Shown piece by piece: positions 40,828 through 64,000 of a DNA stretch of 64,000 nucleotides. The notes under the pieces are model-generated. The model saw nothing but the letters and a program-made list of their open reading frames with translations. It did no database searches and was not told the DNA's origin. The stretch lies in contig NZ_JAGGJW010000002.1 of assembly GCF_017873175.1 (NCBI RefSeq), positions 248,001 to 312,000 of the forward strand, written 5' to 3'. Position 1 is the stretch's first letter; each line of letters starts with the position of its first letter. This DNA comes from Neorhizobium petrolearium. Lineage in GTDB: Bacteria; Pseudomonadota; Alphaproteobacteria; Rhizobiales; Rhizobiaceae. Made by a program: the position numbers and the translations under genes.

Positions 40828-41049
40828 CCGCTTCACCTCTTCCCATGCGGGCGGAGCGCCTCGCGCCTATAGATGTAAAGTTGTTATATCCATTGAGCAA
40901 ACTTGGCAAGCGACGAGTAGGCTTTTCCCACTTTGCCGGCGTCCTCAGCAGACTTCTAATAAGCAATATGAACTGGAAAGATCGAACACCCGGCCTGAAC
41001 CGGGCGAGAAGGTCGCACTCCAGACCTGCGGCGCCAATGCTCTGAATTG

Positions 41050-42246: not shown

Positions 42247-42258
42247 AAGATCAATCGC

Positions 42259-43167: not shown

Positions 43168-43239
43168 GTAACCTCCCGATTCCAACCCGCTCTGGAATTG
43201 GCCGGTTGAACCATCGCTCGTAGAGCATATGGATGCCGC

Positions 43240-43270
43240 TTTTTGACGTCAAAAATCGATAGTTGTCAAC
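43240..43270. promoter_or_regulatory. Candidate operators in the divergent aldolase/ABC promoter region
   Basis: A perfect 16-bp palindrome, TTTTTGACGTCAAAAA (43240-43255), is followed by GTTGTCAAC (43262-43270). They lie in the 288-nt AT-richer gap between the aldolase gene and the Dpp-type operon. A possible -35 for the plus operon, TTGACA, is at 43372-43377. The FadR-type regulator encoded at 50.3 kb is a candidate binder. Confidence 0.5.
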
Positions 43271-43455
43271 AAACAAACGCTACAAGGACAGAGACAATTA
43301 TTGCAACATATTGAATTTACAAAATATTTTCTGAAGACTTCCACGGCACACAGAAAACCCAAGAAATAACATTGACATATTTACAATATCGCGCAAATCT
43401 AGCGCATCTTGCGGCCAGGAGGAACGGTACGCATTTTTCCACATGGGAGGTAGGG

Positions 43456-45105: not shown

Positions 45106-45124
45106 AGCGGCAATCGATCGAGAC

Positions 45125-45286
45125 GCGGGCCGATTGCAAGGCCCGCAAGAGTGCGATGCGCGGAGCACCAGTTTCCGCGCATTGCCTTCCGCCGGTGCGG
45201 GAGGCTCTGAATGTTTCGCAGCGGCTGCGCGCTCGCGGAAGAAACGGCATGAAAGCGTCAGGAAACCGCCATCGCCACCGGTTTCC
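45125..45286 (+). other. Three successive hairpins between binding protein and permease genes
   Basis: The 207-nt gap has three perfect stems: GCGGGCC (45125-45131) with 45140-45146; ATGCGCGGA (45156-45164) with 45174-45182; GGAAACCG (45261-45268) with 45279-45286. They could protect the binding protein message or limit transcription into the permease genes. Confidence 0.65.
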
Positions 45287-45312
45287 GGCCCTATGCGGGA
45301 GGATTTTCGGCG

Positions 45313-46269
45313 ATGCTGCGTTATGTTGCGACACGATTTGCGATCTGGATCCCGTCGGTCCTGCTCGTTATGCTGGCGGTCTATGCGCTGGCTTTTTACG
45401 GCGCGGGCGATCCGATCAAGCTGATTTTTCTGCGTGCACCGGGCGATGTGGCCTATAACCCGCAACGCATCGAGGCGATCCGCGAAAGCGCCGGCCTCAA
45501 CAAGCCGTTCATCGAACAGTTCGCCTACTATGTCTGGAATCTCGCCCAGGGCAAATTCGGCAATTCGCTGAGTTCCGGCCGCTCGGTCTGGGCATTGGTG
45601 AAAGCGGCTGCCCCGGTCTCCTTCCAGCTTGCCCTCTGTTCCGTCATCCTCACGGCGCTGGTCGCCATTCCGCTCGGCATGATCGCAGCGCTGAACCAGA
45701 ACACCAGGATCGACTACACCATTCTGGGTTCGGCCCTCTTCCTCTGGGCGATCCCGGCCTATGTCGCCGGTCCGCTGCTGATGGTGGCGCTGATCGTTCT
45801 CCTGCCCGGCGTCAGGGTGCCCTATGGCTGGGGCGGTATCTTCGACGTGCGCATCCTCCTGCCGCTTGTCGTCCTCTCTTTCCAGCCGATTGCACTGATC
45901 GTGCGCCAGACACGGGCCGCCGTCATCGAAGTTCTGTCGGAGGATTTCGTCCGCACCGCCCGCGCCAAGGGCGTACCAGAGATCATGGTGGCGCTGCGCC
46001 ACATCCTGCGGCCGGTACTGACCCCCGTCGTCACCCAGCTCGGCCTGATCATGATCACCATCGTCAACGGCGCGATTTTCGTGGAACTGGTCTTCGGTCT
46101 GCCCGGGCTCGGGCGCCTCACCGTGCAGGCGCTGATCAATTCGGACTATCCGGTGATCCTGGCGATCACCCTGATCGGCTCCTTCCTGGTGATGATCTCC
46201 AACCTTCTGGTCGACATCCTCTATCCGATGCTCGACCCACGCGCCAACGATTCCAGGAGGAGCCGCTGA
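45313..46269 (+). CDS. Dpp/Opp-type ABC transporter permease (DppB-like)
   Basis: A 318-residue channel subunit with six membrane segments. The N-terminus LRYVATRFAIWIPSVLLVML is typical of DppB. The EAA loop region reads EDFVRTARAKGVPEIMVALR. GGGAGG lies 10 nt before the ATG. It is 2 nt before the second permease. Together with the next three genes it makes a complete importer with the 43.5-kb binding protein. Confidence 0.93.
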   Translation: MLRYVATRFAIWIPSVLLVMLAVYALAFYGAGDPIKLIFLRAPGDVAYNPQRIEAIRESAGLNKPFIEQFAYYVWNLAQGKFGNSLSSGRSVWALVKAAAPVSFQLALCSVILTALVAIPLGMIAALNQNTRIDYTILGSALFLWAIPAYVAGPLLMVALIVLLPGVRVPYGWGGIFDVRILLPLVVLSFQPIALIVRQTRAAVIEVLSEDFVRTARAKGVPEIMVALRHILRPVLTPVVTQLGLIMITIVNGAIFVELVFGLPGLGRLTVQALINSDYPVILAITLIGSFLVMISNLLVDILYPMLDPRANDSRRSR

Positions 46270-46271
46270 CG

Positions 46272-47231
46272 ATGACGCTCGTTCAGACCAATCCGGCGAT
46301 GGCCGACGAGGAGCCGCCGGTCAGCCTGTGGCGGGATGCCTGGCACCGGCTGAAACGCAACAAGCTGGCGATCTTCGGCCTCGGCATCGTCCTGCTGCTC
46401 GCCTTTGCCGCTATCTTCGGCCCGTATCTGACGCCCTACGACTTCTTGAGCCAGGACCTTGCGGCCCGCAATCAGGCGCCGTCGTTCGCCCATCTTTTCG
46501 GTACCGACGACCTAGGCCGCGATGTCTTCAGCCGTGTCGTCTACGGCACCCGCACCGCCTTCCTCGTTGCGATCGTGGTCACGGTGATCGCACTCGCCAT
46601 CGGTACGACCCTCGGCGCAATCGCCGGCTTCTTCGGCGATCCCTATGACCGCCTCATCATGTGGCTGACCGACATGACCATGTCCGTGCCGAACCTGCTT
46701 CTGGTCGTCGTCATCAATGCCTCCCTGAAAACGCCGATTGCCCGCTGGATGGAAGCGCAATACATGGCGACCCTCAATCCCTTCTACCGTGAGACGATCT
46801 GGATCGATTTCCTCCTCGTCTTCGGGTCCATGGCGCTGATCTCGTGGCCTCCCTATGCGCGTCTTGTCCGCGCCCAGGTGCTGTCGATCCGCAGCCGCCC
46901 CTACATTACCGCCGCCATGGCACTCGGACTGTCGAACCGCATCATCATGACGCGCTACGTGGTGCCGAACGCGCTCGGTCCACTGATCGTCTCGGTCAGC
47001 GCCGGCCTCGGCACGGCCATGGTGCTCGAAAGCGCCTTCTCCTTCCTGGGTGTCGGCGTGAACCCGCCGACGCCGAGCTGGGGCAACATGATCGCCGACG
47101 GCCTGCGCGTCTGGCAGCATTATCCGCACCTGCTTGCCGCCCCCGCCGCCGTGCTCGGCCTCGCCTCTGTCGCCTTCTCCTTCCTTGGCGACGGCCTGAA
47201 TGACGCTCTCAACCCGCGAGGTACGAAGTGA
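46272..47231 (+). CDS. Dpp/Opp-type ABC transporter permease (DppC-like)
   Basis: A 319-residue second channel subunit. It has the DppC-type extended N-terminus before the first membrane segment (WHRLKRNKLAIFGLGIVLLL), the GTDDLGRDVFSRVVYGTRTA block and the family end VGVNPPTPSWGNMIADG. An insertion near residues 155-180 (NASLKTPIARWMEAQYMATL) is longer than in E. coli DppC. Its stop overlaps the GTG start of the first ATPase. Confidence 0.93.
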   Translation: MTLVQTNPAMADEEPPVSLWRDAWHRLKRNKLAIFGLGIVLLLAFAAIFGPYLTPYDFLSQDLAARNQAPSFAHLFGTDDLGRDVFSRVVYGTRTAFLVAIVVTVIALAIGTTLGAIAGFFGDPYDRLIMWLTDMTMSVPNLLLVVVINASLKTPIARWMEAQYMATLNPFYRETIWIDFLLVFGSMALISWPPYARLVRAQVLSIRSRPYITAAMALGLSNRIIMTRYVVPNALGPLIVSVSAGLGTAMVLESAFSFLGVGVNPPTPSWGNMIADGLRVWQHYPHLLAAPAAVLGLASVAFSFLGDGLNDALNPRGTK

Positions 47232-48231
47232 CCGCTCGGATTTCAGAACCCCCTCTTCTCGATGTCAAAGGACTGACCGTCGAAATCGACGGCCGTCGTG
47301 GCCCCGCCGTCGTCGTCGACGGGATCGACTTGCATGTCGGCAGAGGAGAAACGCTCGGCATTGTCGGCGAATCCGGCTGCGGCAAAAGCCTCACCATGTT
47401 GAGCCTGATGCGGCTTCTGCCGAACAAGATCCGTGTCAGCAAGGGCACGGCCCGTTTCGACGGCCGCGACCTGCAAACGATGCCGACCCGGGAACTGCGC
47501 AAGGTGCGCGGCGGCGATATCGGTTTCGTCTTCCAGGACCCCATGACCTCCCTCAACCCGGTGATGCGGATCGGCGACCAGCTTTGCGAGCCGCTGATCT
47601 ATCATCGCAAGATGGCGAAGACGGATGCCCGCAAGCGGGCAGTGGAGCTCTTGCGCCTCGTCGGCATTCCGGGGCCGGAGGAGCGGCTGAACGCCTATCC
47701 GCACGAGCTTTCCGGTGGCATGCGCCAACGTGTGATGATCGCGATCGGGCTTGCCTGCGAGCCGAAGCTGTTGATTGCCGACGAGCCGACCACCGCACTC
47801 GATGTGACGATCCAGGCCCAGATCGTCGATCTGGTGAAGGATCTGCGCAACAAGCTCGGCATGTCGGTCGTCTGGATCACCCATGACCTTGCACTGATCG
47901 CCGGTTTGGCCGATCGCGTTGTGGTGCTTTATGCCGGAACCGTGGTTGAGGACGCACCGGTCGACGAGCTTTACGCCAATCCGAGCCACCCCTATACCCG
48001 CGGCCTGCTCGCCTCGATCCCGACGCTTTCCGACGCTCCGGCCGCGCGGCTGAGTTCGATCGGCGGCACGCCACCGGAGCCCGGCCGGCGCCCTGCCGGC
48101 TGTCCCTTTGCGCCGCGCTGCCCGCTTGCCATGGACATATGTCAACGGGACGTGCCGAAGCTCGAGCCGATTTCCTCCGGCGGCAGCCATCGCGCCGCCT
48201 GTTTTGCCGTCAACAAAGTATTGAAGGCTGC

Positions 48232-48235
<4 letters not shown>
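47228..48235 (+). CDS. Dpp/Opp-type ABC transporter ATPase (DppD-like)
   Basis: A 335-residue ATPase with Walker A GESGCGKSLTM near residue 54, signature [16 protein letters not shown], Walker [13 protein letters not shown] and switch WITHDL. The C-terminal oligopeptide/dipeptide extension shows GCPFAPRCPLAMDIC with the Cys residues that bind an iron-sulfur cluster in this family. The start is GTG at 47228, overlapping the permease stop. The stop overlaps the next ATPase. Confidence 0.93.
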
Positions 48236-49223
<988 letters not shown>

Positions 49224-49224
<1 letters not shown>

Positions 49225-50297
49225 TGGCTATTCAAGTCGCGATCATCGCCGACGATCTGACGGGCGCGCTCGATACGGGCACGCCCTTCGCGGCGGCGGG
49301 ACTCGTCGTCGCGGTGGCAACCGACATAGAGGGCATTCCGACCGCATTGCGAAGCAATCCGGACGTGCTGGTGGTCAACACCGCCTCTCGTGCCCTGCCT
49401 CCGGAGGAAGCGGAAGCGCGTATCGGACTTGCGGCAGCGGCAATCGCCGTGGCCGAACCCGCCTTTCTCTTCAAGAAGATCGATTCACGCCTGAAAGGAA
49501 ATATCACCGTCGAAAGCAAAGCGCTTGCAAAGGTCTTCGGTTATCGCAAGGTCGTCGTCGCGCCCGCCATTCCCGACCAGCAACGTTTCACCCGCGGCGG
49601 AGCGGTCGTCGGTCGCGGCGTCGACAAACCTATCCCGATATTGCCCCTCTTTGCCGGCCCCGGCGCGGACCTCGTCATCGCCGATGCCGAGACCGACGGT
49701 GACCTTGACCGCGTTCTCGCAAGCCATGACTGGAGCGACACGGTGGCGGTCGGAACGCGGGGCCTTGGCCTGGCGCTCGCGCGGAGGCTTCGTAAACCGG
49801 ACACGAACTCCACACCTTTCCGCACCTCCGCCGCGACTTTGTTTGCGATCGGCTCCCGCGATCCGATCACCATGGCGCAGATGACGGCTCTGGCGGAATG
49901 CCGGCTGCTCCACTCGGTGATCGATGCACCCGCGGGTGCCCTTGCAGCTCCACCTGAAACCGGATTGCCGGCGCTAATCCGCTGTTCCGGCGAAATCGTC
50001 GAGGACAGCGCGACCGTCGCAAGCCGATTTGCAGAAACTATCAAAGCCGCGATCGAAGCCTTGATGCCCGACACGGTGGTCACCGGCGGCGGCGACACGG
50101 CCTACGCGCTGCTGCGGGCTCTGGAAGCCGGCGTGCTGTTTCCGAAGGGTGAGATCGAGCCGGGTATTCCTTGGTGCGAAATCCTGCTGAAAAATGGCCG
50201 GCACATCCGGGTTGCGGTAAAGTCCGGGGGCTTCGGTACGCGGGAATCTCTGATACAAGCGATTGAAACGGCGCCCGAAACGCGGCAGGCCGGATGA
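49224..50297 (+). CDS. Four-carbon acid sugar kinase (DUF1537 family)
   Basis: A 357-residue kinase of the DUF1537 family. The N-terminal substrate domain shows IIADDLTGALDTGTPFA at residues 7-23 and FKKIDSRLKGN near 92. The C-terminal nucleotide domain shows VVTGGGDTA and VAVKSGGFG. Characterised members phosphorylate D-threonate, D-erythronate, L-threonate or related acids at O4; sequence reading alone cannot choose among them. Translational coupling to the transporter gene suggests the imported solute, or a product of it, is the substrate. The partner dehydrogenase is probably the PdxA2-like protein at 38.7 kb. Confidence 0.9.
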
Positions 50298-50306
50298 TGG
50301 GCAAGA

Positions 50307-51077
50307 ATGGCAGATCGACTGACTGAGAGTGCACAAAGAGAACCGCGAGTAACGGCGAGCGTGAAATCGGAACGCGGCCGCTCCGTGAAACTCGTCGACC
50401 GCGTCTTCGACCAGCTTCTGGAACGCATCCGCACCGGCAACTATGCACCGGACTCACGTTTGCCCGGCGAGCACGAACTGGCAGCCATGCTCGGCGTCTC
50501 CCGGCCGGTCGTCCGCGATGCCTTGAGCCGCCTTCGCGATCAGGGGCTCATCTACTCCCGCCAGGGCGCCGGAACCTTCGTCAGCGCCCAGGCTTCGGGA
50601 GCCGCGCATCTCGCCTATTCGCCGGTCAAATCGATCGCCGACATCCAGCGCTGCTATGAATTCCGCCTGACGATCGAGCCGGCTGCTGCCTTCTTCGCCG
50701 CACAGCGACGCGACAAGGCCGCAATCGACAAGATCGCCGCGGCACTCGAAGAGCTCCGTGAAGCAACGAGCCACCAGCTTCACAGGGTGGAGGCGGATTT
50801 CAACTTCCACAGAGCGGTCACCGAGGCGGCCAACAATCATTTCTACACGGCCTCCATGGAAGCGTTGAAAGCGCATATCGCCGTCGGCATGCACCTGCAC
50901 GGCCTGTCGCTCATGGGCCCGCGCCCCGGCCTGCAGCAGGTCTACGAGGAACACCAGGCAATCTTCCGTGCCGTCGCCGACGGCCGCGCCGAGGATGCGC
51001 GCGACCTGATGCGCAAACACCTTGAGGGCTCACGCGACCGCCTGTTCGAAGGTCGTGTACTCGACCTCTCGTTTTGA
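50307..51077 (+). CDS. FadR/GntR family transcriptional regulator
   Basis: A 256-residue regulator with an N-terminal winged helix (LPGEHELAAMLGVSRPVVRD and RLRDQGLIYSRQGAGTFVS, about residues 52-93) and a helical FCD effector domain. The domain has metal-site residues in EADFNFHRAVTE and in EEHQAIFRAV near 210. It begins 9 nt after the kinase, so it is the last gene of the transporter-kinase operon. It probably controls that operon and the divergent aldolase operon. It converges on the GHL6-like gene. Confidence 0.9.
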   Translation: MADRLTESAQREPRVTASVKSERGRSVKLVDRVFDQLLERIRTGNYAPDSRLPGEHELAAMLGVSRPVVRDALSRLRDQGLIYSRQGAGTFVSAQASGAAHLAYSPVKSIADIQRCYEFRLTIEPAAAFFAAQRRDKAAIDKIAAALEELREATSHQLHRVEADFNFHRAVTEAANNHFYTASMEALKAHIAVGMHLHGLSLMGPRPGLQQVYEEHQAIFRAVADGRAEDARDLMRKHLEGSRDRLFEGRVLDLSF

Positions 51078-51098: not shown

Positions 51099-53294
51099 TC
51101 AAGAGCGGAATTCGATGACGGCGACTTCATGGTCCAGGATTTGCGGGACCTCGAAAACGAGCTCTGTTCCCTCAAGTTTGGCCGCAACGCCACACGAACT
51201 GACACGCAATTGCACCTGGCAGGAAGCTTCCCTGAAGGGAATGCGTAGCCGGACTGTGACCGGACCGATCGGAACGAGGTCGCTCTGTCGTCCCGGCACT
51301 TTGGCGGTAGCCAGCCGGCTGTTGAGATGCAGAATATATCGGCCATCCTGCTCATAGAGCGTGGGAGTGATGAGGCCATGCGCGCTTTCGAGCGACACCA
51401 GGAGCTTTTCACCAAGAGCCCACCGAACGGCATTGGTGATGATTAGCGCATGCTCCGGATGTTCGTCACGGGCAAAGCATCGGTCGAGATCGCCGACAAG
51501 CCAGATGAGCTTTCCTCCTGATGCAGTTTCGCGGGCGGTGATGACCGGCAGGTCCGAATGCGGCCGCCGCATCCATGCGGTTTCCGGCGGGTAGATCGGA
51601 AATTCGTGGACAAATGTTGCAAGGACCGCAACGTCGTCATCCACCTCCACGACCGGCAGAAACCCGCCGAACGGAACGGTGTCCGTCCCTTCAAGACCGG
51701 CAAACAGCGCATGACGCTGTCCAGTGGCCAAGGGAGCGGTCGCGTCTCTTGGGCCGTAGAGGCCGGCGCGCAGTTCTGGATCGAGCCGAATATAGGTGTG
51801 GCGAGCGCTCACCTCGATGTCCGGGTTGGCAAGTTCCCGCCCGCCATGCGATTTGCCCTGGTAGTGGACACCAAAAAGGTCGTTTAGCGCGAAATCCTCC
51901 CGCGGGTCACCGGATGGCCCGTAAAGACTGGTCTCGGACGTCGCAACGACCGATCCGCCGGACTTTGCGAATATTTTCACCGCCTCGGCCTGCGCATCAG
52001 ACATGACGCCGAGATTGGGCAGAATGAGAATTCCGAAACGGCCTACGGCACGGCTGATGTCGTCGGCATGAACGGGCAGATAAGAAATCCCGGCGCGGTC
52101 GAGAGCACGGATTACCCCTCTGTAGGGGTTCATCGTGCGATCGTTGGCCTTGTCCTGGCCGTGGAAATCGTAGTTGTCCTGCGACCAGATGATACCGACA
52201 TCGGCCAATGGCTTGCGGTCGACCAGAATGTCTTCATTGGCTTCATGCCAGCAGAAGATCGGCTCCGCGCTGTTGTACTGGCGACGATCCTCATGCGACG
52301 AGCCGATATGGTGCCACCACGGCTGGATGCCTCCGGCAAACCCGGAGGAAGACCATAGCCGCACTTCGGCCGCAGGCATGCTCGCAAGCCGAAAGGCGGG
52401 GCTGCCAAGCTGGTATTGCGGCATGCTTTCCGGGATGAGCTTATCCCATCCCCCCACTTCGTGCAGCCGCTTGCCGGCTTCCGTATTGTCCGCAAAGCCG
52501 TCGACGGCATTGCGACGCTGATGGTCGAGCATGACAATTTCGGTGCGCGTCAGTATGGATTTGAGGTCTATGAACCGGTTGCCATTGTTGAGCACGTCTC
52601 CGCTGATCATGCCCATCCAACGGCAATGCTCGCCGCCTGCCTGCATGGTGACGGAATTGTTGAATTCCCAGAGTTCTGTCCGGCGCTTGTAGTTCCAGCG
52701 GATCCAGCGTCGATAGCGCTCGTCGGACCAGTCATGGCCGGAGGGTAGATCGACTCCGGAATATTCCCGGAATTGATCGGCGCAGTACCCGCAATAACAG
52801 ATATTCTTGCGCGGAATTCCTGCCCAGCTGTTGTCGGCAAACCCGTCTGGATAACTGCGCTTGATGATCTCACGCATGATCTCCGGCAGATATTCCGAAT
52901 AATAAGGAGAATTGATGCAGGTAATGTACTTGTCCGCCTGCCGATAGGGTTTGCCGGTCGCGTCAACGCAGATCCAATCCGGATGGGCACGATAGAAATC
53001 CTCGGCAACCCGATTGGAGTCCATCCGGGCGATAACCTTAAGCCCCTCCTCCCGGGCCTCCTTGACGATTTCTCCATAGAGATCACGCTCGCCCAGCGTA
53101 TGAGCCCGGTGATGCAACGGAAAGCGCGAGGGATAGTAGGCAACGATCCCACCGGAATTGACGATGACCCCCTGGATACGCGTCTTGCGCCAATGCGCGC
53201 GCCACCACGCGGCATCGTAGCGAGCCGGGTCGATCTCGACCAGATTGGTCTGCCCCCAACGCTTCGTTGTCCTGTACCAGGGTTCTTCAGCCAT
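51099..53294 (-). CDS. Large GHL6-type putative glycoside hydrolase
   Basis: A 731-residue protein resembling the hypothetical glycosyl hydrolase 6 group (PF14871), followed by a beta-galactosidase trimerisation-like domain. The N-terminal barrel (about 20-330) shows KTRIQGVIVNSGGIVAYYPS, EGLKVIARMDSNRVAEDFY and YPDGFADNSWAG. Asp154 of the last is where such barrels often place a catalytic acid. A CYCGYC cluster (166-171) could bind a metal. The middle (about 375-600) is Rossmann-like (GRFGILILPNLGVMSDAQ). No signal peptide, so cytoplasmic. GGGAGG lies 5 nt before the ATG at 53294; an earlier start overlaps the LacI gene. It is 28 nt downstream of lacI-type gene, same operon. Substrate unknown. 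Confidence 0.8.
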   Translation of the reverse strand: MAEEPWYRTTKRWGQTNLVEIDPARYDAAWWRAHWRKTRIQGVIVNSGGIVAYYPSRFPLHHRAHTLGERDLYGEIVKEAREEGLKVIARMDSNRVAEDFYRAHPDWICVDATGKPYRQADKYITCINSPYYSEYLPEIMREIIKRSYPDGFADNSWAGIPRKNICYCGYCADQFREYSGVDLPSGHDWSDERYRRWIRWNYKRRTELWEFNNSVTMQAGGEHCRWMGMISGDVLNNGNRFIDLKSILTRTEIVMLDHQRRNAVDGFADNTEAGKRLHEVGGWDKLIPESMPQYQLGSPAFRLASMPAAEVRLWSSSGFAGGIQPWWHHIGSSHEDRRQYNSAEPIFCWHEANEDILVDRKPLADVGIIWSQDNYDFHGQDKANDRTMNPYRGVIRALDRAGISYLPVHADDISRAVGRFGILILPNLGVMSDAQAEAVKIFAKSGGSVVATSETSLYGPSGDPREDFALNDLFGVHYQGKSHGGRELANPDIEVSARHTYIRLDPELRAGLYGPRDATAPLATGQRHALFAGLEGTDTVPFGGFLPVVEVDDDVAVLATFVHEFPIYPPETAWMRRPHSDLPVITARETASGGKLIWLVGDLDRCFARDEHPEHALIITNAVRWALGEKLLVSLESAHGLITPTLYEQDGRYILHLNSRLATAKVPGRQSDLVPIGPVTVRLRIPFREASCQVQLRVSSCGVAAKLEGTELVFEVPQILDHEVAVIEFRS

Positions 53295-53322
53295 TCTTTC
53301 CTCCCTCAGTTTGCCGACTTCT

Positions 53323-54423
53323 TCATTCAGCCGCGGCATCCCTTGGTTGCGCGGGCTTTCCCATGCGATCGGTGCTCGCACGCTTCATGACATCGAAGCC
53401 GACATCGACAACCCGTTCATCGTCCGGCTCGCCGTCCAACTGTCGACGCAAGGCGATTACGGCGTCATGTCCGACCTTCCAACGATGGGTCCGGACACTC
53501 GACAGGGAGGGAGAAGCCGCCTCCATGAAATCCTCGTCATTGAATCCTGCTATGCCGAATTGGCGGGGGACTGCCACGCCCCGGGCCTGGCATTCGAAGA
53601 GAGCGCCCAGCGCCAGAACGTCATTGTTGCAGAAAACGGCATCCATATCCGGCGCCGCTTTCCAGAGATCAGCGAGCAACTGCCGTCCCATGGAGGGTGT
53701 TGAATACTGATGTCTGTCCCAACTGCCACGCAAGGCCAGTGCTTCGAGATCACCGGCAGGGTTGATCAGCCGCGGATCATATAGCCCCGCCTCCTCCAAA
53801 GCCTCGACATATCCCGACAACCGTCCCTTGGAGCGGCTGTTCATCCAGCCGCTCAGGAATCCGATGCGGCGATATCCGGCTTCGATCAGATGTTGCGTCA
53901 TCGCCTTGCCGGCGTCGTGATGGGAGAAGCCGATGATCTTGTTCACCGGATTGTCGGTGAGATCCATGATCTGGATGACAGGGCAATTCGCCTTTTCCAG
54001 CATCCGGCGGCCGGCAGCGCTCTGGTCGACCCCTGAAACGATCAGGCCGGCCGGCTTGTGTCGCAAAAGTTCGGCAAGCAGCCGATCCTCTTCGTCGAGA
54101 TCGTAGCGCGTGTTGCCGACCTGGATGTGCAGCCTCGTCTGGCCGATCCCGTCATAGATGCCGCGCAAGACATCGGCGAAAATATGCTGCGTCAGCGAGG
54201 GCACGAGGACGCCCACCACGTCGCTGCGGGTGGATGCCAGGGTCCGGGCGGCGAGATTGGGAACATACCCGAGTTCGCGGACGGCAGTATCGATCTTCTC
54301 ACGCAGCATGTCCGACACCAGGGAAGGGTCCCGCAAAGCGCGAGATACGGTAATCGCCCCTACCCCAGCACGCTGGGCAACATCGGCTATCGTGGGTCTA
54401 CCGTCCGTACGGCGTTTAGACAT
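53323..54423 (-). CDS. LacI family transcriptional repressor
   Basis: A 366-residue repressor. The DNA-binding helix-turn-helix TIADVAQRAGVGAITVSRAL and hinge (GYVPNLAARTLASTRSD) take the first 70 residues, and the rest is the periplasmic-binding-protein-like effector domain (VVGVLVPSLTQHIFADVLRG, AVFCNNDVLALGAL). It resembles GntR-type LacI proteins that sense gluconate-like ligands. It lies upstream of the GHL6-type gene on the minus strand and divergent from the second Dpp-type operon. A perfect 16-bp LacI-type palindrome sits in the gap, so it should repress both directions. Confidence 0.92.
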   Translation of the reverse strand: MSKRRTDGRPTIADVAQRAGVGAITVSRALRDPSLVSDMLREKIDTAVRELGYVPNLAARTLASTRSDVVGVLVPSLTQHIFADVLRGIYDGIGQTRLHIQVGNTRYDLDEEDRLLAELLRHKPAGLIVSGVDQSAAGRRMLEKANCPVIQIMDLTDNPVNKIIGFSHHDAGKAMTQHLIEAGYRRIGFLSGWMNSRSKGRLSGYVEALEEAGLYDPRLINPAGDLEALALRGSWDRHQYSTPSMGRQLLADLWKAAPDMDAVFCNNDVLALGALFECQARGVAVPRQFGIAGFNDEDFMEAASPSLSSVRTHRWKVGHDAVIALRRQLDGEPDDERVVDVGFDVMKRASTDRMGKPAQPRDAAAE

Positions 54424-54618: not shown

Positions 54619-54693
54619 TAGCGTGAGTTGTTCGTCAACCGTCTTGTGCCGTGGAGGCGACACGGAGTCGGTAAAGCCCAGGGGAGGAGTGGC

Positions 54694-56313
54694 ATGGCAA
54701 TATCTCGACGCATGTTCATGAGCCGCACGGCCGCAACCATTGCCGGCGCAGGCATCGCGACCAGCCTTGGTCCGAACGCTCTCGCACAGGGAGCAACAGA
54801 TACGTTGCGGCTGGCCTTTGCCGCCCGCGGCGTCCGCACTATCGATCCGGCCAAATCGATCCAGGGTGCCGACGAATGGGCCATCATCCATATCTTCGAC
54901 AAGCTTGTGGAAGTGCCGCTCGGGCATTTTCCGGGTAGTGTCGCCGAAGTTCAGCCGAGCCTTGCAACCAGCTGGTCGATGACGCCGGATGCGAAGACAT
55001 GGACGTTCCAGCTTCGCCAGGGCGTGAAGTTTCACAAAGGCTATGGCGACCTCACGTCGGACGACGTGAAATACACCTTCGACCGCCTGCGCAACGACAA
55101 GGCTCTGGGCGGCAATCGCGTCCTGTTTGACAATATCGCCGACGTCAAAGTGGACGGTGTCAACACGGTCATATTCACGCTGAACCAGCCCGATCCGCTG
55201 TTCATCATGGGGCCGCTCAGCCACTATTCATCCAGCATCATTTCGCGCAAGGCACTTGAGGAAAAAGGTGCAGCCGCTTTCGAAAAGGACCCGATCGGCA
55301 CCGGACCTTACCAGCTCGCGAGCGTCGAAAGCGATCCCTCGCAGGGCGTGAAGCTCACCGCCAACAAGGACTATTTCGGCGGGGCACCCGTCACCCCCAA
55401 TCTCCAGGTCCGCTATATCGCGGATACAACGGCCCGGACCTTGGCGCTGCTTTCGGGTGACGTCCACATGATCGAAGGCGTGCGTGCGCCGGGCTGGGTG
55501 CCCTCGATTCAGCAGCGAAATGCGAACCTGCATTTCGACGTCGCCTCCCCAGGGAGTTTCTTCACCATCTCGTTCAACCTGACAGTGAAGCCCTTCGACG
55601 ACGTGCGCGTCCGGCAGGCAATTGCCTATCTGATCAATCGCGACGAGATCGCCAACGCCATGGCTCCGGTCAGCCAGCGGACCTATGGCCTGAATCCGCC
55701 TGCCTATCTGGGAGGGTTCACAGCGAAGACCATCCCTGCAGAGGTTCGTTATGACTACGATCCGGAGAGGGCGAAGGCACTGCTGACCGAGGCCAGTCAT
55801 CCGAACGGGTTCTCGTTCAACGCCGACACCTCGCAGCGCGAGGATTATTCCTCGGTAATGCTGATCGTCCAGGAACAGCTTCGTGCCGGCGGGATCGACA
55901 TGAAGCTGAACATCAAGGACCACACCGCCTTCCACGCCGATCAGCAGAAAGGCACCAACACGATCTTCCAGCGCTCGGCGGCTTATCCGCCTGTCCCCAC
56001 GCAGGCGATCATCGAGCAATTGAGTGCTGCTGCCGAAGTCAAATCAGATGGTTCCGGCGGCCCCAATTTCAGCCACTATGGCGTCGCCATCCCCGGCATC
56101 GACGACATGCTGAAGAAGGCGATGGAGGAGCCTGATCTGGAGAAACGCGTCAAGCTGGTCCAGGACATCGAGGTCAAGTTCCTGACCGACATGCCGCTCC
56201 TGCCGATCAGCGACAACGGCTATCTGGTCGTCCGGGCTGCCAATGTCGATCTCGGCTACGAACTCAAGTCGGGCTACGCCCACTGGCGGCTGACCAAGGC
56301 GAAGATCAACTGA
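54694..56313 (+). CDS. Dpp/Opp-type ABC transporter substrate-binding protein
   Basis: A 539-residue periplasmic family 5 binding protein with a twin-arginine-like signal (SRRMFMSRTAATIAGAGIAT, cleavage near ALAQG). Blocks include TWTFQLRQGVKFHKGYGDLT and TVKPFDDVRVRQAIAYLINR. GGGGAGGAG lies 5 nt before the ATG at 54694. It leads an operon with a large putative glycosidase and a full Dpp-type transporter under LacI control, which favours an oligosaccharide ligand. It is a close paralogue of the partial gene at the right window edge, sharing QREDYSS and SHYGVA-PGIDD-L blocks. Confidence 0.92.
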   Translation: MAISRRMFMSRTAATIAGAGIATSLGPNALAQGATDTLRLAFAARGVRTIDPAKSIQGADEWAIIHIFDKLVEVPLGHFPGSVAEVQPSLATSWSMTPDAKTWTFQLRQGVKFHKGYGDLTSDDVKYTFDRLRNDKALGGNRVLFDNIADVKVDGVNTVIFTLNQPDPLFIMGPLSHYSSSIISRKALEEKGAAAFEKDPIGTGPYQLASVESDPSQGVKLTANKDYFGGAPVTPNLQVRYIADTTARTLALLSGDVHMIEGVRAPGWVPSIQQRNANLHFDVASPGSFFTISFNLTVKPFDDVRVRQAIAYLINRDEIANAMAPVSQRTYGLNPPAYLGGFTAKTIPAEVRYDYDPERAKALLTEASHPNGFSFNADTSQREDYSSVMLIVQEQLRAGGIDMKLNIKDHTAFHADQQKGTNTIFQRSAAYPPVPTQAIIEQLSAAAEVKSDGSGGPNFSHYGVAIPGIDDMLKKAMEEPDLEKRVKLVQDIEVKFLTDMPLLPISDNGYLVVRAANVDLGYELKSGYAHWRLTKAKIN

Positions 56314-56485: not shown

Positions 56486-59071
56486 ATGACTGCATCGGCT
56501 TCGGTCACCATTGTTCTCCCGGGGACGGATACCGCCCCGCCGGTTCGCTGGGCCGCGGCCGAACTGCAAAATGTGCTCGCGCGCCGGAACGTGGAGGCCA
56601 GGATCGCCGATGCGGCGCAGTCCGGTATCGTTATCAATGTCTTCGGAGCCGGCCTGCCCAGCACTCGAGAACTGCCTGTGGAACTGCCTGAAACGCCGGA
56701 AAGCTTCGCGCTCGTCCGGCAGGGCGACATCATCACCGCCTGGGGTTCCGATACGCGCGGACTGGTCTTCGCGCTGACGGAATTAGCCGATCGGGTGCGC
56801 TTCGCACCAGGCCAAGATCTATTCGAAGGCACTTTCCCGCTTGTCGAGCAACCATCTGCCCGCGTCCGAAGCATGAGCCGGCTGTTTTGCAGTGAGCAGG
56901 AAGACAAGGTCTGGTTCTACGACCGCCAGCAATGGCGCGAATACCTGTCGATGCTTGCAGCCAACCGCTTCAACCGTTTTTCGCTCGCGCTCGGTTTTGG
57001 TTACAACTACCCCTACCACAATCCATGGATTACCGACGTCTATTTCTATTTCCCCTATCCCTACCTGCTTAACCTGCCCGGCCATGACGTGAGGGTCGAG
57101 GAACTGCCGGACGACGAGCGTGAGCTGAACCTGGAAATGCTGAAGTTCATCGGCCAGGAGGCTGCCAAGCGAGGGCTCGAATTCCAGCTTGCGCTCTGGA
57201 CCCAACGATACGACTTCGATGACGTGCCGCGCGCCAATTACACCGTCACGGGCATAACCAAAGACAATCTCGCCCCCTATTGTCGCGAGGCTATCACGAC
57301 GCTTCTGAAGGAAGTGCCCGAAATTACCGGGCTTACCTTCCGTGTCCATGTGGAGGGCGGCATCGCCGAGGGCGAATACGGCTTCTGGGAAGAAGCTTTC
57401 GCCGGCGTTGCCGCCGCCGGCCGTCCGATCGAAATCGACATGCACGGCAAGGGCCTCGACCACAGGATGATCGGGATCGCCCGCGCCAGCGGCATGCCGA
57501 TCGCGGCCTCGCCGAAATATCTGGCTGAGCACATGGGCCCGCCCTATCACCAGTCGGCCATCCGCGACAAGGAATATCCGCCGGAATTCGCACGGAGCGC
57601 GCGAGAGCAGTTGAGCGAGGGCTCGCGAAAGTTCCTGCGGTATTCCTATGGCGATCTCTTGACCGCGGACAAGGACTACAAGGTCATTTACCGCATCTGG
57701 CCAGGCACGCAGCGTGTGCTTCTCTGGGGAGATCCAGAGTTTGCCGCAGGCTACGGACGCAGTTCCATGTTTGCCGGCTCCGACGGAGTCGAATGGTGTG
57801 AACCTTTGGGCTTCAAGGGGCGTATGGGAACCGGCATCCCGGGTGGGCGCTTCAACTACCAGAAACAGGGCCTTGCCACCCGTTACGACTGGCAGAAATA
57901 CGACTATCAGTACCGCATCTGGGGGCGGTTGCTTTATAACCCGGATGCGCCACGCGAAAGCTGGATGCGCTACCTCACCAAGACCTGCGGCGATACAGCA
58001 GAGGCCTGCGAAAAGGGGCTGTCATGGGCGAGTCGGGTCCTGCCGCTGGTCACACTGGCGCATGGCCCGTCGGCATCCAACAACCACTATTGGCCGGAGG
58101 TCTACACCAACCTCGCCCTGATCGACGGTTCGGGACGGAGAGCCTATGGCTTTGATATGGAGGGACCGGTCCGCTTCGGTAACGCTCCGACCTTCGATCC
58201 CGCACTCTTTGCCAATGCGCGTGAATACATTGAATTGCTGCTCAACGGAAAGGCATCGCACCGCTATACCCCGCTCGATGTCGCCGACTGGCTGGACGAG
58301 ATGGCGCATGGTTGCGAGAGCGCAGTCCTCAAGGCGACCGGCACCAAAAGTTTCGGCAACATCGCCGTGCAGCGGATGATCGTCGACATCCAGATCTGCG
58401 CAGGGCTGGCACGCTTCTTCGCTGAACGCTTCCGGGCGGCATGCTGGGCCGAGCTCTTCGTCGCAACCAAGGTCACGACGCTAATGGATCGTGTCATCGA
58501 CCATGCGAACCGCTCGCTGATGGCCTGGGAAAAGATCGCCGACACTTCCCGTGATCTCTACATGGATGACCTTACCTACGGCCCACAGTCCTGGCTGCGT
58601 GGCTCGTGGCATTCGCGACTACCGGAAATGCGTGCGGAACTGGCCGATCTGGAATCGCTCCGTGGCGGCGGCTCTTATGAAAGCGTCAGGGCCGAACCAG
58701 CGGTGGCAGCCACGATCGCGGCGCTGGAAGCACGCCGACCCGTCTCATCAAGCGCGTCCTCCGTGCATGGTGCCCCAACCTTCAAACCGGGCGAAGATTT
58801 CGTGATCCGCTTCGCCGGAGAGGCCGATGGTGAGCCCCTCCTCCACTACCGGCACGTCAATCAGGCTGAGCGCTGGATATCTCTGCCGATGAGGCGGTGG
58901 GAGGATAACTTCGTCGCTGCCATCCCGGGCGACTACACACGCTCGAAGTATCACTTGCAGTATTTCGTCAGCTTTGAGCGCAACGGACGAAATTTCTTAT
59001 CGCCGGGATTGCAGCCGAACCTCGCCAACGAGCCTTATTTGACGTCCTTGCAGGAGAGAGGCTGGCAGTAG
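56486..59071 (+). CDS. Large putative glycoside hydrolase of unknown family, 861 aa
   Basis: I do not recognise an established family with confidence. The first 120 residues look like the non-catalytic domain that precedes the barrel in alpha-glucuronidases and hexosaminidases (GH67/GH20 type): VRWAAAELQNVLARRN and IITAWGSDTRGLVFALTELA. A barrel-like region follows (about 130-450) rich in Trp, Tyr and Phe (LALGFGYNYPYHNPWITDVY), with acidic clusters such as RVHVEGGIAEGEYGFWEEAF near residue 287. The middle is helical, and the last 80 residues (HYRHVNQAERWISLPMRRWE) look like a beta-sandwich. No signal peptide, so cytoplasmic. It lies between the binding protein and permease genes, so its substrate should be what the transporter imports. 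Confidence 0.75.
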   Translation: MTASASVTIVLPGTDTAPPVRWAAAELQNVLARRNVEARIADAAQSGIVINVFGAGLPSTRELPVELPETPESFALVRQGDIITAWGSDTRGLVFALTELADRVRFAPGQDLFEGTFPLVEQPSARVRSMSRLFCSEQEDKVWFYDRQQWREYLSMLAANRFNRFSLALGFGYNYPYHNPWITDVYFYFPYPYLLNLPGHDVRVEELPDDERELNLEMLKFIGQEAAKRGLEFQLALWTQRYDFDDVPRANYTVTGITKDNLAPYCREAITTLLKEVPEITGLTFRVHVEGGIAEGEYGFWEEAFAGVAAAGRPIEIDMHGKGLDHRMIGIARASGMPIAASPKYLAEHMGPPYHQSAIRDKEYPPEFARSAREQLSEGSRKFLRYSYGDLLTADKDYKVIYRIWPGTQRVLLWGDPEFAAGYGRSSMFAGSDGVEWCEPLGFKGRMGTGIPGGRFNYQKQGLATRYDWQKYDYQYRIWGRLLYNPDAPRESWMRYLTKTCGDTAEACEKGLSWASRVLPLVTLAHGPSASNNHYWPEVYTNLALIDGSGRRAYGFDMEGPVRFGNAPTFDPALFANAREYIELLLNGKASHRYTPLDVADWLDEMAHGCESAVLKATGTKSFGNIAVQRMIVDIQICAGLARFFAERFRAACWAELFVATKVTTLMDRVIDHANRSLMAWEKIADTSRDLYMDDLTYGPQSWLRGSWHSRLPEMRAELADLESLRGGGSYESVRAEPAVAATIAALEARRPVSSSASSVHGAPTFKPGEDFVIRFAGEADGEPLLHYRHVNQAERWISLPMRRWEDNFVAAIPGDYTRSKYHLQYFVSFERNGRNFLSPGLQPNLANEPYLTSLQERGWQ

Positions 59072-59151
59072 GCAGGTGATTGCGCAAGGATAGCCTGCCC
59101 GTGCTGCGAGGAGGCAAAACGGACACCGCGACCAGGGAGGAGGAAAACACC

Positions 59152-60087
59152 ATGGCGCGATATCTTCTGTTGAGATTGGCGGATGCCGTTCCCACAGTCC
59201 TGCTGGTTCTGACCCTCGTCTTCATCGCGATGCGCATTCTGCCGGGCGATCCGGCGATCGCGGCGCTCGGAGATATGGCGACGCCGGAACAGCTCGAAAT
59301 TTTCCGCGAGCGTATGGGCCTGAACGCGCCTCTTTGGCAGCAATACATCGACTTCGTCTGGGGCATGCTGACGCTCGATTTCGGCACGTCGCTGATGAAC
59401 AATCAATCGGTGCTGCGGCTGATCGGCTATAACCTGCCCTACACGATCGAATTGACTATCGTCGCCATGATTCTGGGCGTCGGCTCTGGTATTCCGCTCG
59501 GCGTGCTGGCGGCGACCCATCGTAACAAGGCCGCCGACAGTGCGGTGCGCGGCTTCTCACTGCTCGGCTATGCGGTGCCGGATTTTTACCTGGGAGCCCT
59601 GCTTCTCATCACCTTCTCGCTGAACCTCGGGCTTTTTCCCATCAATGGCGGCGGGGAGGGTTTTCTCGACCGGATGCATCACGTCTTCCTGCCGGCCGTC
59701 ACGCTGGCATTGGTCAAGGCGGCCTTCATAGGGCGGCTCACGCGAACGTCCCTGCTGGAAGTCTTCGGCAAGGATTACATCCGCACGGCGCGGGCCAAGG
59801 GCGCAAGGGAACCCAGGGTCATCTACCGGCACGGGCTGCGCAATGCCCTGCTGCCGCTCACCACCGGGATCGGCCTCAGCACGCTCGCCACTTTGTCGGG
59901 ATCGGTGGCAATCGAACTGGTGTTCAATCGCCCGGGCATTGGCAAGCTGCTCATCAGCGCCATCTCGGAACGCGATTATGCAGTCATCCAGGGCGGCGTC
60001 GTGATTTTCGCGATGTTCGTCGTGCTCATCAACCTCATGATGGACCTCGTCTATATCGTCGTCGATCCCAGAATTCGGGTGCAGTGA
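59152..60087 (+). CDS. Dpp/Opp-type ABC transporter permease (DppB-like)
   Basis: A 311-residue channel subunit with six membrane segments. It has the family opening RYLLLRLADAVPTVLLVLTL, the periplasmic RMGLNAPLWQQYIDFVWG stretch and an EAA loop region GKDYIRTARAKGAREPRVIY. GGGAGGAGG precedes the ATG at 59152; the 80 nt between it and the 861-aa gene hold nothing else. The next gene overlaps its stop. Confidence 0.94.
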   Translation: MARYLLLRLADAVPTVLLVLTLVFIAMRILPGDPAIAALGDMATPEQLEIFRERMGLNAPLWQQYIDFVWGMLTLDFGTSLMNNQSVLRLIGYNLPYTIELTIVAMILGVGSGIPLGVLAATHRNKAADSAVRGFSLLGYAVPDFYLGALLLITFSLNLGLFPINGGGEGFLDRMHHVFLPAVTLALVKAAFIGRLTRTSLLEVFGKDYIRTARAKGAREPRVIYRHGLRNALLPLTTGIGLSTLATLSGSVAIELVFNRPGIGKLLISAISERDYAVIQGGVVIFAMFVVLINLMMDLVYIVVDPRIRVQ

Positions 60088-60976
60088 TGGCTGTCAGCAT
60101 CGAACATTCCGAACTACCGTCCCCTTCCCTCGCACCGGAACCGAGGGCGCTGAGCCGGCTTGGCTACGAGCTCTTCTCGCGCACATCGACGATGTTCGCA
60201 TTTGCGGTCGTCGTAATCTTCGTGTTCGTCGCGGTCTTCGCGCCGCTTCTCGCACCTTATGATCCACTCGCCCAGAGCATCCTCAAGATCAACCGGCTGC
60301 CTTCCGCCGACAATTGGCTCGGCACCGACCAGTTTGGGCGCGACGTCCTGTCGAGGATGATCTACGGTTCGCGGAATTCGTTGATCTTCGGCCTCATCTC
60401 GCCGGTGCTGGCGGCGATCTGCGGTACGGTGCTTGGCGTGGTTGCCGGGTATTTCGGCGGTATCATAGACCGCATCATTTCCCGCCTGATTGACCTGCTC
60501 CTCGCCTTCCCCGAATTGCTGCTCGCCATCATGATCGCGGCGGTGCTGGGCGGCGGCTTCTGGAATGTCATCGCCGTAATCACGGTCGCCTTCGTTCCGG
60601 GCTTTGCCCGCGTGGCGCGCGCTTCGACGCTTGCAGTCAAGCAGGAACCCTATGTGGAGGCAGCCATCGCAGTCGGCGTGCGGACACCGGTCATCATCTT
60701 CCGCCACGTGATCCCCAATATCGCCGCACCGATCGTCGTGCTGATGACGCTCTGGGTCGCCTCGGCCATCCGCCTCGAAGCGTCGCTGAGCTTCCTCGGC
60801 ATCGGCACGCAGCCGCCGAATCCGAGCTGGGGCAACATCATCCGCGATGGCCTCAACAATCTCTTCGGCTCGCCCTGGCCGATCATCGGGGCCGGCTTCG
60901 CCATCACCTGTGTTGTCCTTTCGTTCAACCTCCTGGGTGATGCGGTGCGAGACGTGCTCGATCCGGAGATATCGGA

Positions 60977-60980
<4 letters not shown>
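60087..60980 (+). CDS. Dpp/Opp-type ABC transporter permease (DppC-like)
   Basis: A 297-residue second channel subunit. Visible blocks are GTDQFGRDVLSRMIYGSRNS near residue 74, the docking loop TLAVKQEPYVEAAIAVGVRT and the C-terminal IGTQPPNPSWGNIIRDG. The ATG at 60087 overlaps the preceding stop by one base (TGATG); a GTG at 60084 is less likely. The stop overlaps the ATPase start in ATGA. Confidence 0.94.
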
Positions 60981-61980
<1,000 letters not shown>

Positions 61981-61984
<4 letters not shown>

Positions 61985-63000
61985 CCGATCCCATCATTCG
62001 CGTCAACGACCTCGGCAAGACATTCGGCTCCGGCATGCGGCTCAGCCTTGCGAAACAGGCTGACGAGGTGCGGGCCGTCGACGGCTGCTCTTTCGAGATC
62101 AATCGCAGCGAGACGTTGGCACTCGTGGGCGAGTCCGGCTGTGGCAAATCCACGCTCGGGCGGCTCTTGTTGCGGTTGATCGATGCAACCGCGGGCAAGG
62201 TCTATTTCGAGAATACTGAACTGACTGACCTGCCCGCTGCGCGCATGCGAGACATGCGCCGCCACCTGCAGATGATCTTCCAGGACCCTTACGGCTCGCT
62301 CAGCCCTCGCCGTACGATCGCGCAGATCATCGCCGAACCTCTCGACGTGTTTGGCTTGGTCCGCTCGGGTCGCCAGCGGCGCGAACGCGTCGCCGACCTC
62401 ATGACCCAGGTCGGACTTTCGCCAAGCTTCATGGACAGGCATCCGCGCCAGTTCTCCGGCGGCCAGCGCCAGCGCATCGGCATCGCCCGCGCCATCGCCG
62501 TCGATCCGAGCTTTATCGTGGCCGACGAACCCGTTTCCGCCCTCGACGTTTCCGTGCAGGCGCAGATCATCAACCTGATGCAGGACTTGCAGAAGCAAAA
62601 AGGCTTCTCGTTCCTGTTCATCGCCCATGACCTCGCTGTGGTGCGCCATATTGCCGATCGGGTTGCGGTTATGTATCTCGGCAGGATCGTCGAGATCGGG
62701 CCGAAGAAGCAGATCTACGGCATGCCTCAACATCCCTATACGCAGGCGCTTCTATCGGCGGCCCCAGAGCCGGATCCCGACCGCAAGGGAAAGCGGATCA
62801 TTTTGGAGGGAGACGTCCCAAGCCCCAAGCGCGTCCCATCAGGGTGCAGTTTTCATACCCGTTGTCCGATCCGTCAGGATATCTGCGGCATCGAGCGGCC
62901 ACCCTTGCGCGAGGTGGCGCCGGGTCAGCTCGCGGCCTGTCATTTTGCAAAGCCGTTTCCGATCCCTCGGCCGACGTCATCTCAAGCGGTTCCGGCCTGA
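61981..63000 (+). CDS. Dpp/Opp-type ABC transporter ATPase (DppF-like)
   Basis: A 339-residue second ATPase with Walker A GESGCGKSTLG near residue 55, signature FSGGQRQRIGIARAIA, Walker B FIVADEPVSALD and the end GCSFHTRCPIRQDIC. The ATG at 61981 overlaps the previous stop. It is the last gene of the LacI-controlled operon and is followed by a strong hairpin, then a convergent gene. Confidence 0.94.
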
Positions 63001-63175: not shown

Positions 63176-64000
63176 TCACGCCGTTTTGGTCGCGCGATGG
63201 AAGCGCCAGCGGGCATAGCCGCTCTTCACTGGGTAACCGAGATCAACGCGTTTGTTGCGCGCCACGGTGAAGGACAGCGTCGACAGGCCGATCAACGGCA
63301 GATCGCGGAGCACCTGCAGCTCGATCTTTTTGCAGAGATCCACATAGGTCTTGTAATCGGTCGCTTGCAGGGCCTGGTTGAGCAGATCGTCGATACCCGG
63401 CATCGCCACGCCGTAATGGCTGTAGGCGCCGCCACCCTTGCCGTCCGGCTTTACTTCCGATTTCGACGAAAGCTGCTGGAAATAAAGCTGCGTCGGGATC
63501 GGCGGATAGCTCGAAGAGTGCATCGCGAGCGTGTTCTTGTCGCTGCGATTGTCGGCGTGATAGGCCGTGTGGTCGCCGATTTTGAGGTTCATGCGCAGAC
63601 CGACGGCACGCAACTGCTCCTGTACGATGAGCATGGTTGAGGAATAATCCTCGCGCTGGCTGCAATTGCTGTCGAAATCGAAGCCGTCGGGAAAACCTGC
63701 TTCCGCCAACAGGGCCTTGGCCTTTTCCGGATCGTACTTGTATTGCAGTTCCGGCGGCAGATCCTCGGTCTTGAAGCCAGCCGGGAAGAAATCCGGCTGC
63801 AGGCCGGCCATGAAGCCACCCATCGGCTTCAGCGCCTCGGCGACCGCATGCCGGTCGATCGCATACATGACCGCCTGACGGACCTTCAGGTTGTCAAAAG
63901 GCTTGCGCTTGAGATTGATATGCAGGGTATTGAACGAACCCGGCTGCGTCATGTCGAACTGCAGGGTGGGGTCACGCTGCAGCATCGAATCCACCCAGCC
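63176..64000 (-). CDS. Dpp/Opp-type substrate-binding protein, truncated by window edge
   Basis: The C-terminal 274 residues of a family 5 solute-binding protein; its start lies beyond the window. From the edge it reads GWVDSMLQRDPTLQFD, then KRKPFDNLKVRQAVMYAIDR, NCSQREDYSSTMLIVQEQLR and SHYGVAMPGIDDLLNQAL. These align block by block with the binding protein at 54694-56313 (GWVPSIQQR, VKPFDDVRVRQA, QREDYSSVML, SHYGVAIPGIDDML), so the two are paralogues. It converges on the LacI-controlled operon. It may belong to a second related transporter outside the window or serve as an alternative ligand receptor. Confidence 0.9.
   Translation of the reverse strand, partial: GWVDSMLQRDPTLQFDMTQPGSFNTLHINLKRKPFDNLKVRQAVMYAIDRHAVAEALKPMGGFMAGLQPDFFPAGFKTEDLPPELQYKYDPEKAKALLAEAGFPDGFDFDSNCSQREDYSSTMLIVQEQLRAVGLRMNLKIGDHTAYHADNRSDKNTLAMHSSSYPPIPTQLYFQQLSSKSEVKPDGKGGGAYSHYGVAMPGIDDLLNQALQATDYKTYVDLCKKIELQVLRDLPLIGLSTLSFTVARNKRVDLGYPVKSGYARWRFHRATKTA

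Follow-up and report, generated by a model that had tools for sequence, protein, structure and literature searches.

An 861-residue protein of Neorhizobium petrolearium is a probable glycosidase from an unnamed sister family of GH138

The open reading frame at positions 56486-59071 (+ strand) of the 64,000-nucleotide stretch of Neorhizobium petrolearium DNA analyzed here (the window) runs from an ATG to a stop codon and encodes an 861-aa protein that is probably a GH138-superfamily glycosidase whose specificity has changed, representing an unnamed sister family. Our main reading, to which we assign a probability of roughly 70%, is that this protein hydrolyses glycosides in exo fashion, belongs to a branch distinct from characterised GH138 and processes an imported plant-type oligosaccharide with a retaining Glu348/Glu290 pair. 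The annotation relies on the open reading frame, on 210 relatives and on a fold match to GH138 (Z 24.9). In a full-text literature search, no paper on the 861-aa group stood among the matches listed (titles and abstract starts), and for GH138 the list was complete.

Domain architecture and relationship to GH138

The AlphaFold model of the protein, calculated from an input of 63 aligned sequences (pLDDT 90.3, pTM 0.92), is composed of an N-terminal α/β domain (residues 1-123; 56486..56854), a (β/α)8 barrel (residues 124-466; 56855..57883), a helical domain (residues 467-737; 57884..58696) and a C-terminal Ig/FnIII-like β-sandwich (residues 738-861; 58697..59068), the last modelled separately with a pLDDT of 91.1; the borders of the first two domains were placed by eye. 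A sequence-only reading of this DNA had recognized an AWGSDTRG block of the kind that precedes GH20/GH67 barrels, which the translation confirms at residues 85-92 (56738-56761). The first domain is indeed GH20b/GH67N/GH84-like, and the N-terminal part of the protein also yields a weak profile match to GH84 N-terminal domains. The barrel that it had posited is likewise present in the model, with eight strands at residues 127-134, 164-169, 232-237, 280-286, 316-320, 339-341, 399-404 and 434-438.

No Pfam family matched the 861-aa protein at E<=1, and the sole NCBIfam match, to NF049878 (alpha-d-galacturonidase), reached 42.3 bits where the cut-off demands 1300; in a whole-genome search the same model scored the protein at 26.6 bits, also missing the GH138 cut-off. 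A single-sequence search of solved structures brought up GH138 at an E-value of 0.059, which is too weak to decide; kinship to GH138 was settled by a profile search, in which BPa0997 matched at E 1.7e-21 in two stretches, the second corresponding to the helical domain. The eight true GH138 sequences used for comparison came from a search of 295 genomes in the class to which a Spirosoma genome belongs, 8 of which yielded them, and lie above the NF049878 cut-off at 1433-1561 bits. Aligned with them by hhalign, the 861-aa group gave a probability of 99.8% (E 2.5e-28, 19% identity).

Structural comparisons agree with these results. The top Foldseek matches were GH138 chains (E 1.9e-31 to 6e-30), followed by 5fl0 (titled merely hydrolase; 7e-15), BtGH84 (1.3e-14), GH20C (1.9e-12) and GH67 (2.3e-12). 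The top three rows of VIA-align were the three GH138 entries (Z 24.9, 23.9 and 23.7; 620-625 aligned residues; rmsd 3.1-3.6), with 6hzg superposing over 620 residues at Z 24.9, an rmsd of 3.1 and 17% identity, and the next protein was an acetylhexosaminidase at Z 15.4. Enzymes of GH20, GH84 and GH67 share the N-terminal domain and the barrel type with the 861-aa protein (Z about 14-15), but the protein has no match to their Pfam catalytic domains at E<=1 and their fold score is far under that of GH138. Modelled alone, the C-terminal part resembles sandwiches of the FnIII, Ig and CBM56 types (Z about 8-9) and had no Foldseek match at E<=0.001.

GH138 (BT0997/BPa0997; PDB 6hze, 6hzf and 6hzg; NF049878) thus has in common with the 861-aa group the domain order, the (β/α)8 barrel, the helical domain, a K-[YF]-x-x-Glu motif and an acidic residue close to the end of strand 4. 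In contrast, identity between the two is 14-19%, their clades are separate, the site of GH138 Arg332 is mostly His and that of Arg521 never Arg in the 861-aa group, and the alphaproteobacterial members of this group reside in an ABC-transporter operon. The fold and the nucleophile motif are therefore those of GH138, whereas the family cut-off, the clade and both specificity arginines set the protein apart. The sequence-only reading had seen no recognised catalytic family, and this stands as far as direct assignment goes, with no Pfam family and 42.3 of 1300 bits in NCBIfam, but fold, profiles and motif place the protein beside GH138, the RG-II alpha-galacturonidases. Homologues already in a CAZy family, which that reading had named as contrary evidence, do exist at a remove, in GH138, below the cut-off and in another clade. 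The AlphaFold and Foldseek comparison that it had proposed returned the barrel fold and GH138 as the nearest solved structure.

Conservation of the putative active site

We take GH138 to be a family of hydrolases with a retaining mechanism, with Glu361 presumably as the nucleophile and Glu294 presumably as the acid/base, and according to its founding paper Arg332 and Arg521 reportedly read GalA. The structure listing includes a GH138 E361S entry. Conservation was counted on 73 rows, including 2 haloarchaeal ones, after earlier counts on 63 aligned sequences that contained 43 invariant positions; together with the 210 relatives, these argue against a chance reading frame. Glu290, Asp318, Lys322, Lys344 and Glu348 are each kept in 73/73 rows, and position 345 is Tyr or Phe in 72 of the 73.

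The K-[YF]-x-G-E motif, present in 8/8 GH138 sequences, is set by hhalign without gaps over K344-Y345-x-x-E348, pointing to Glu348 (57527..57529), past strand 6, as the candidate nucleophile. In the 30-row MAFFT alignment, which includes third-clade rows without the Glu, the G-E of GH138 is displaced by nine columns and Glu361 does not fall on Glu348. The proposed acid/base is Glu290 (57353..57355), directly past strand 4 and kept in all rows of both counts (63/63 and 73/73). GH138 Glu294 is set over His288, two residues ahead of Glu290, by hhalign and MAFFT alike; in the two haloarchaeal rows residue 288 is Asn and residue 290 is Glu, and this speaks for Glu290 as the acid. The acidic cluster near residue 287 (E287-E298), which had drawn attention from the sequence alone, thus contains a catalytic candidate as well as a largely conserved Glu295 (67/73), but Glu297 is found in just 14/73 rows.

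As aligned, both GalA-reading arginines of GH138 are replaced in the 861-aa protein. The counterpart of Arg332 is His320 (57443..57445), on which hhalign and MAFFT concur; it is His in 71/73 rows and Arg in the 2 haloarchaeal rows, and Arg also occurs there in one second copy (1/63). A by-eye reading that had put Asp318 at this site was dropped, since both aligners, run with the eight GH138 sequences, put His320 there. The counterpart of Arg521, which lies within GNRQT in 8/8 GH138 sequences, is Asn533 (58082..58084) in the alignment with the same eight; of the 73 rows, 63 have Asn at this position, 5 His and one each Gly, Asp, Ala, Thr and Leu, and none has Arg. In a section of PMC7939467, BT0997 is described as an alpha-galacturonidase acting on alpha-1,2-linked GalA.

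Distribution, phylogeny and gene neighbourhood

A species-level genome scan with an 8-row alignment query found that 210 of 241 matched stretches encode a relative of the 861-aa protein. Among the 80 relatives kept for locus analysis are alphaproteobacterial ones, some of them from ocean single cells, and ones from two betaproteobacterial MAGs; the others belong to Acidobacteria, Bacteroidetes and relatives, Verrucomicrobia and Planctomycetes, apart from one MAG with the label Bacilli and one with just the label bacterium. A relative is also found in a haloarchaeon. The distribution of the gene is patchy. Among 199 genomes of the same family there were 3 matches, namely the window genome, one real relative at 45% identity and one unconvincing match (E 9.7e-4 over 94 residues), and the 2 matches among 398 genomes of the phylum were the window genome and L004, a third-clade protein with 24% identity. 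The plasmid collection held 11 records (Rhizobium 4, Haladaptatus 3, Neorhizobium 2, Sinorhizobium 1 and Marinovum 1). On L008, a Haladaptatus plasmid, the query matches at three places, two of which read as complete genes, and a single region carries two MR/MLE genes. Of 81 members, 18 show a loose Tat-like RRxF pattern in their first 70 residues, and none of these 18 is alphaproteobacterial.

To place these proteins relative to GH138, a 30-row tree was inferred, which was flagged for long branches and uneven letter make-up. It resolves three clades, all supported at 99 or higher: the 861-aa group (15 rows, 100/100), GH138 (8 rows, 100/100) and a third clade. The 861-aa protein falls outside the GH138 clade, and none of eight genomes carrying the 861-aa group has a match above the GH138 cut-off (0/8). 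The third clade (P0007, L004, L093-L096, L101 and L103; also L008:18559-20673), with proteins of about 700-740 aa, belongs like the 861-aa group to the GH138 superfamily. Close to the strand-4 site it has Glu (6/7), or Asp in the case of P0007. It differs from that group in lacking Glu at the nucleophile site (7/7 aligned rows) and the C-terminal sandwich, and in joining GH138 when the tree is midpoint-rooted. Its members P0007 and L004 match NF049878 well, at 136.5 and 126.2 bits, but far under the 1300 of the cut-off; this clade is another unnamed group. A third-clade cluster shares its locus with the 861-aa group in L008, L056, L060, L067 and L087.

In the window, the gene lies between a family-5 solute-binding protein (SBP_bac_5; 54628..56313, +) and oligopeptide-type permeases and ATPases, and Pfam thereby bears out the transporter setting described in the sequence-only reading; the tie to one solute that it also proposed is likely. 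Downstream are two ABC permeases (59080..60087, + and 60084..60980, +; both BPD_transp_1, the second with OppC_N) and two ABC ATPases with oligo_HPY (60977..61984, + and 61927..63000, +). The solute-binding protein scores 14.6 bits on TAT_signal_seq, slightly under the cut-off of 16.7. Upstream, on the opposite strand, lie a LacI-type regulator (53323..54423, −; Pfam, with 381.3 bits on a GntR-type NCBIfam model whose cut-off is 400) and a GHL6 glycosidase (51099..53381, −; PF14871, 75.2 bits) that is weakly GH151-like, matching the alpha-L-fucosidase 6tvk at 38.2 bits; 6tvk is given as the GH151 fucosidase ALfuk2 in an excerpt of PMC10154630. A second family-5 solute-binding protein (63176..64000, −; Pfam) is cut by the window end, and adjoining it just beyond that end is an MR/MLE enzyme (L090:8806-9915; genome C2 312805-313914). 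The best solved relative of this enzyme is 3n4e/4dwd, listed under a name without function, and the same is true of a Rhizobium leguminosarum MR/MLE enzyme. Elsewhere in the window (39694-51077) there is a second oligopeptide-type transporter operon with an SBD_N/NBD_C (sugar-acid kinase) type gene and a GntR/FCD regulator. Close to it are a BNR_2 (sialidase-like) gene, a DHDPS-family gene and an iron alcohol dehydrogenase; a BNR_2 gene also adjoins the haloarchaeal relative in L008.

Gene linkage was computed over the 80 loci (L010-L089) with simply called ORFs clustered by BLAST, with many loci cut short, loci related to each other and the main ORF masked by a longer false frame in 7/80. The linked genes encode SBP5 (37 loci), two permease clusters (27 each), GHL6 (26), LacI (25), IclR (13), MR/MLE (12), GH51 (5) and the third-clade protein (4). 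The whole window genome (6.97 Mb) contains, linked copies included, only 3 GHL6 matches and 16 MR/MLE matches (15 above cut-off), so that the linkage to GHL6 is strong and that to MR/MLE moderate.

Twenty neighbour proteins, chosen by eye, were also labelled. In four non-alphaproteobacterial loci (L063, L066, L073 and L086) the labels comprise GH43 (two), an esterase, GH95, GH3 (two), GH97, and GH51-type and GH54-type arabinofuranosidases. In the Planctomycete locus L077 the next gene encodes an RNB-domain protein. The labels obtained for L077 and L054 were RNB-domain protein and peptidase, and for the ocean locus L070 the label was SOUL heme-binding protein; these neighbours are uninformative as to sugars. 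Gene contexts vary among the ocean members, some of whose neighbours are presumably ATP synthase-like genes, judging from their first residues. Together with the RNB-domain neighbour of L077, these varied contexts make a poor fit to one fixed pathway. Two ocean alphaproteobacterial single cells (L070:11982-20462 and L072:3748-12229) carry an apparent operon convergent to the GH138-like gene. In L070 it contains an MR/MLE enzyme, a hydroxyacid-type reductase, a tagatose-bisphosphate aldolase-type gene, DhaK- and DhaL-type genes, a D-psicose 3-epimerase-type gene and a nucleoside hydrolase-like gene, and L072 shows the same layout as judged from first residues. This is perhaps a rare-sugar pathway, but with 2 loci and the opposite strand we do not press it as a sign for the 861-aa group.

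Proposed function and alternative readings

Catalysis, mechanism, location and substrate class are what we infer from the computed fold, relationship, conservation and gene linkage. In a rhizobial-type host, the 861-aa protein would probably be cytoplasmic, and the Opp-type ABC transporter encoded around it would import an oligosaccharide, most likely of plant type, from which the 861-aa enzyme and the GHL6 glycosidase may remove terminal sugars. In some hosts, the nearby MR/MLE acid-sugar dehydratase-like enzyme could then process the resulting sugar acid. A retaining reaction is most likely, in which Glu348 would be the nucleophile and Glu290 the acid/base. A role in RG-II was not adopted as the default, as the loci carry ABC and GHL6 genes; a section of PMC7922503 ties GH138 to GH137, GH139, GH142 and GH143.

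The protein could instead be a true alpha-galacturonidase, that is, a divergent GH138 acting on the same substrate class, a uronic acid, with His320 or Lys322 taking over the binding of the carboxylate. Besides the fold and nucleophile motif common to GH138, the only family model to respond is an alpha-d-galacturonidase, Lys322 is invariant, the haloarchaeal rows have Arg at 320 and acid-sugar enzymes lie nearby, the haloarchaeal one being closest, at 270 bits, to 4ggb/4hpn, which we take to be a galactarolactone cycloisomerase. Nevertheless, we regard this reading as unlikely, given the fully supported split between the clades, the 42 of 1300 bits, and the loss of Arg from the 521 site in every row and from the 332 site in 71/73, as far as the reported roles of these arginines hold. 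Because neither GalA-reading arginine is kept, galacturonic acid bound in the manner of GH138 appears an unlikely substrate.

Readings that depart from hydrolysis altogether seem to us far less probable. Phosphorolytic systems typically have a cytoplasmic enzyme next to a transporter, and this setting, together with the invariant Lys322 and Lys344, could suit a lyase or phosphorylase acting on an imported glycoside; we nonetheless give it little credence, as the closest fold is that of a hydrolase and as, with a Tat-like start in some relatives, phosphorolysis is improbable across the whole group. Credence is about as low for a non-catalytic protein that binds or senses sugars while retaining a glycoside hydrolase fold. 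The third clade, without the nucleophile Glu in 7/7 rows, indicates that the GH138 superfamily can lose this residue, but in the 861-aa group both candidate catalytic glutamates persist with Asp318, Lys322 and Lys344 in every row over many phyla, and the gene is linked to another glycosidase gene.

Under our main reading of an exo-acting hydrolase, the group might go as far as to constitute a new glycoside hydrolase family, a GH138-superfamily lineage acting on a neutral or different terminal sugar and spread over soil rhizobia, open-ocean alphaproteobacteria and haloarchaea; we advance this tentatively, at somewhat short of even odds. If true, all these organisms would turn over a single linkage, overlooked so far, in plant or algal glycans. 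The RG-II alpha-galacturonidases have a sister in this widespread and well-conserved group of 860-aa proteins, which has no Pfam family and lies far under the NF049878 cut-off. Its retained catalytic motif combined with the lost GalA-reading arginines makes a clear, testable claim of new specificity, and since the operon is well defined, with its transporter, GHL6 glycosidase and LacI regulator, growth and induction tests in ordinary rhizobia should be able to find the substrate.
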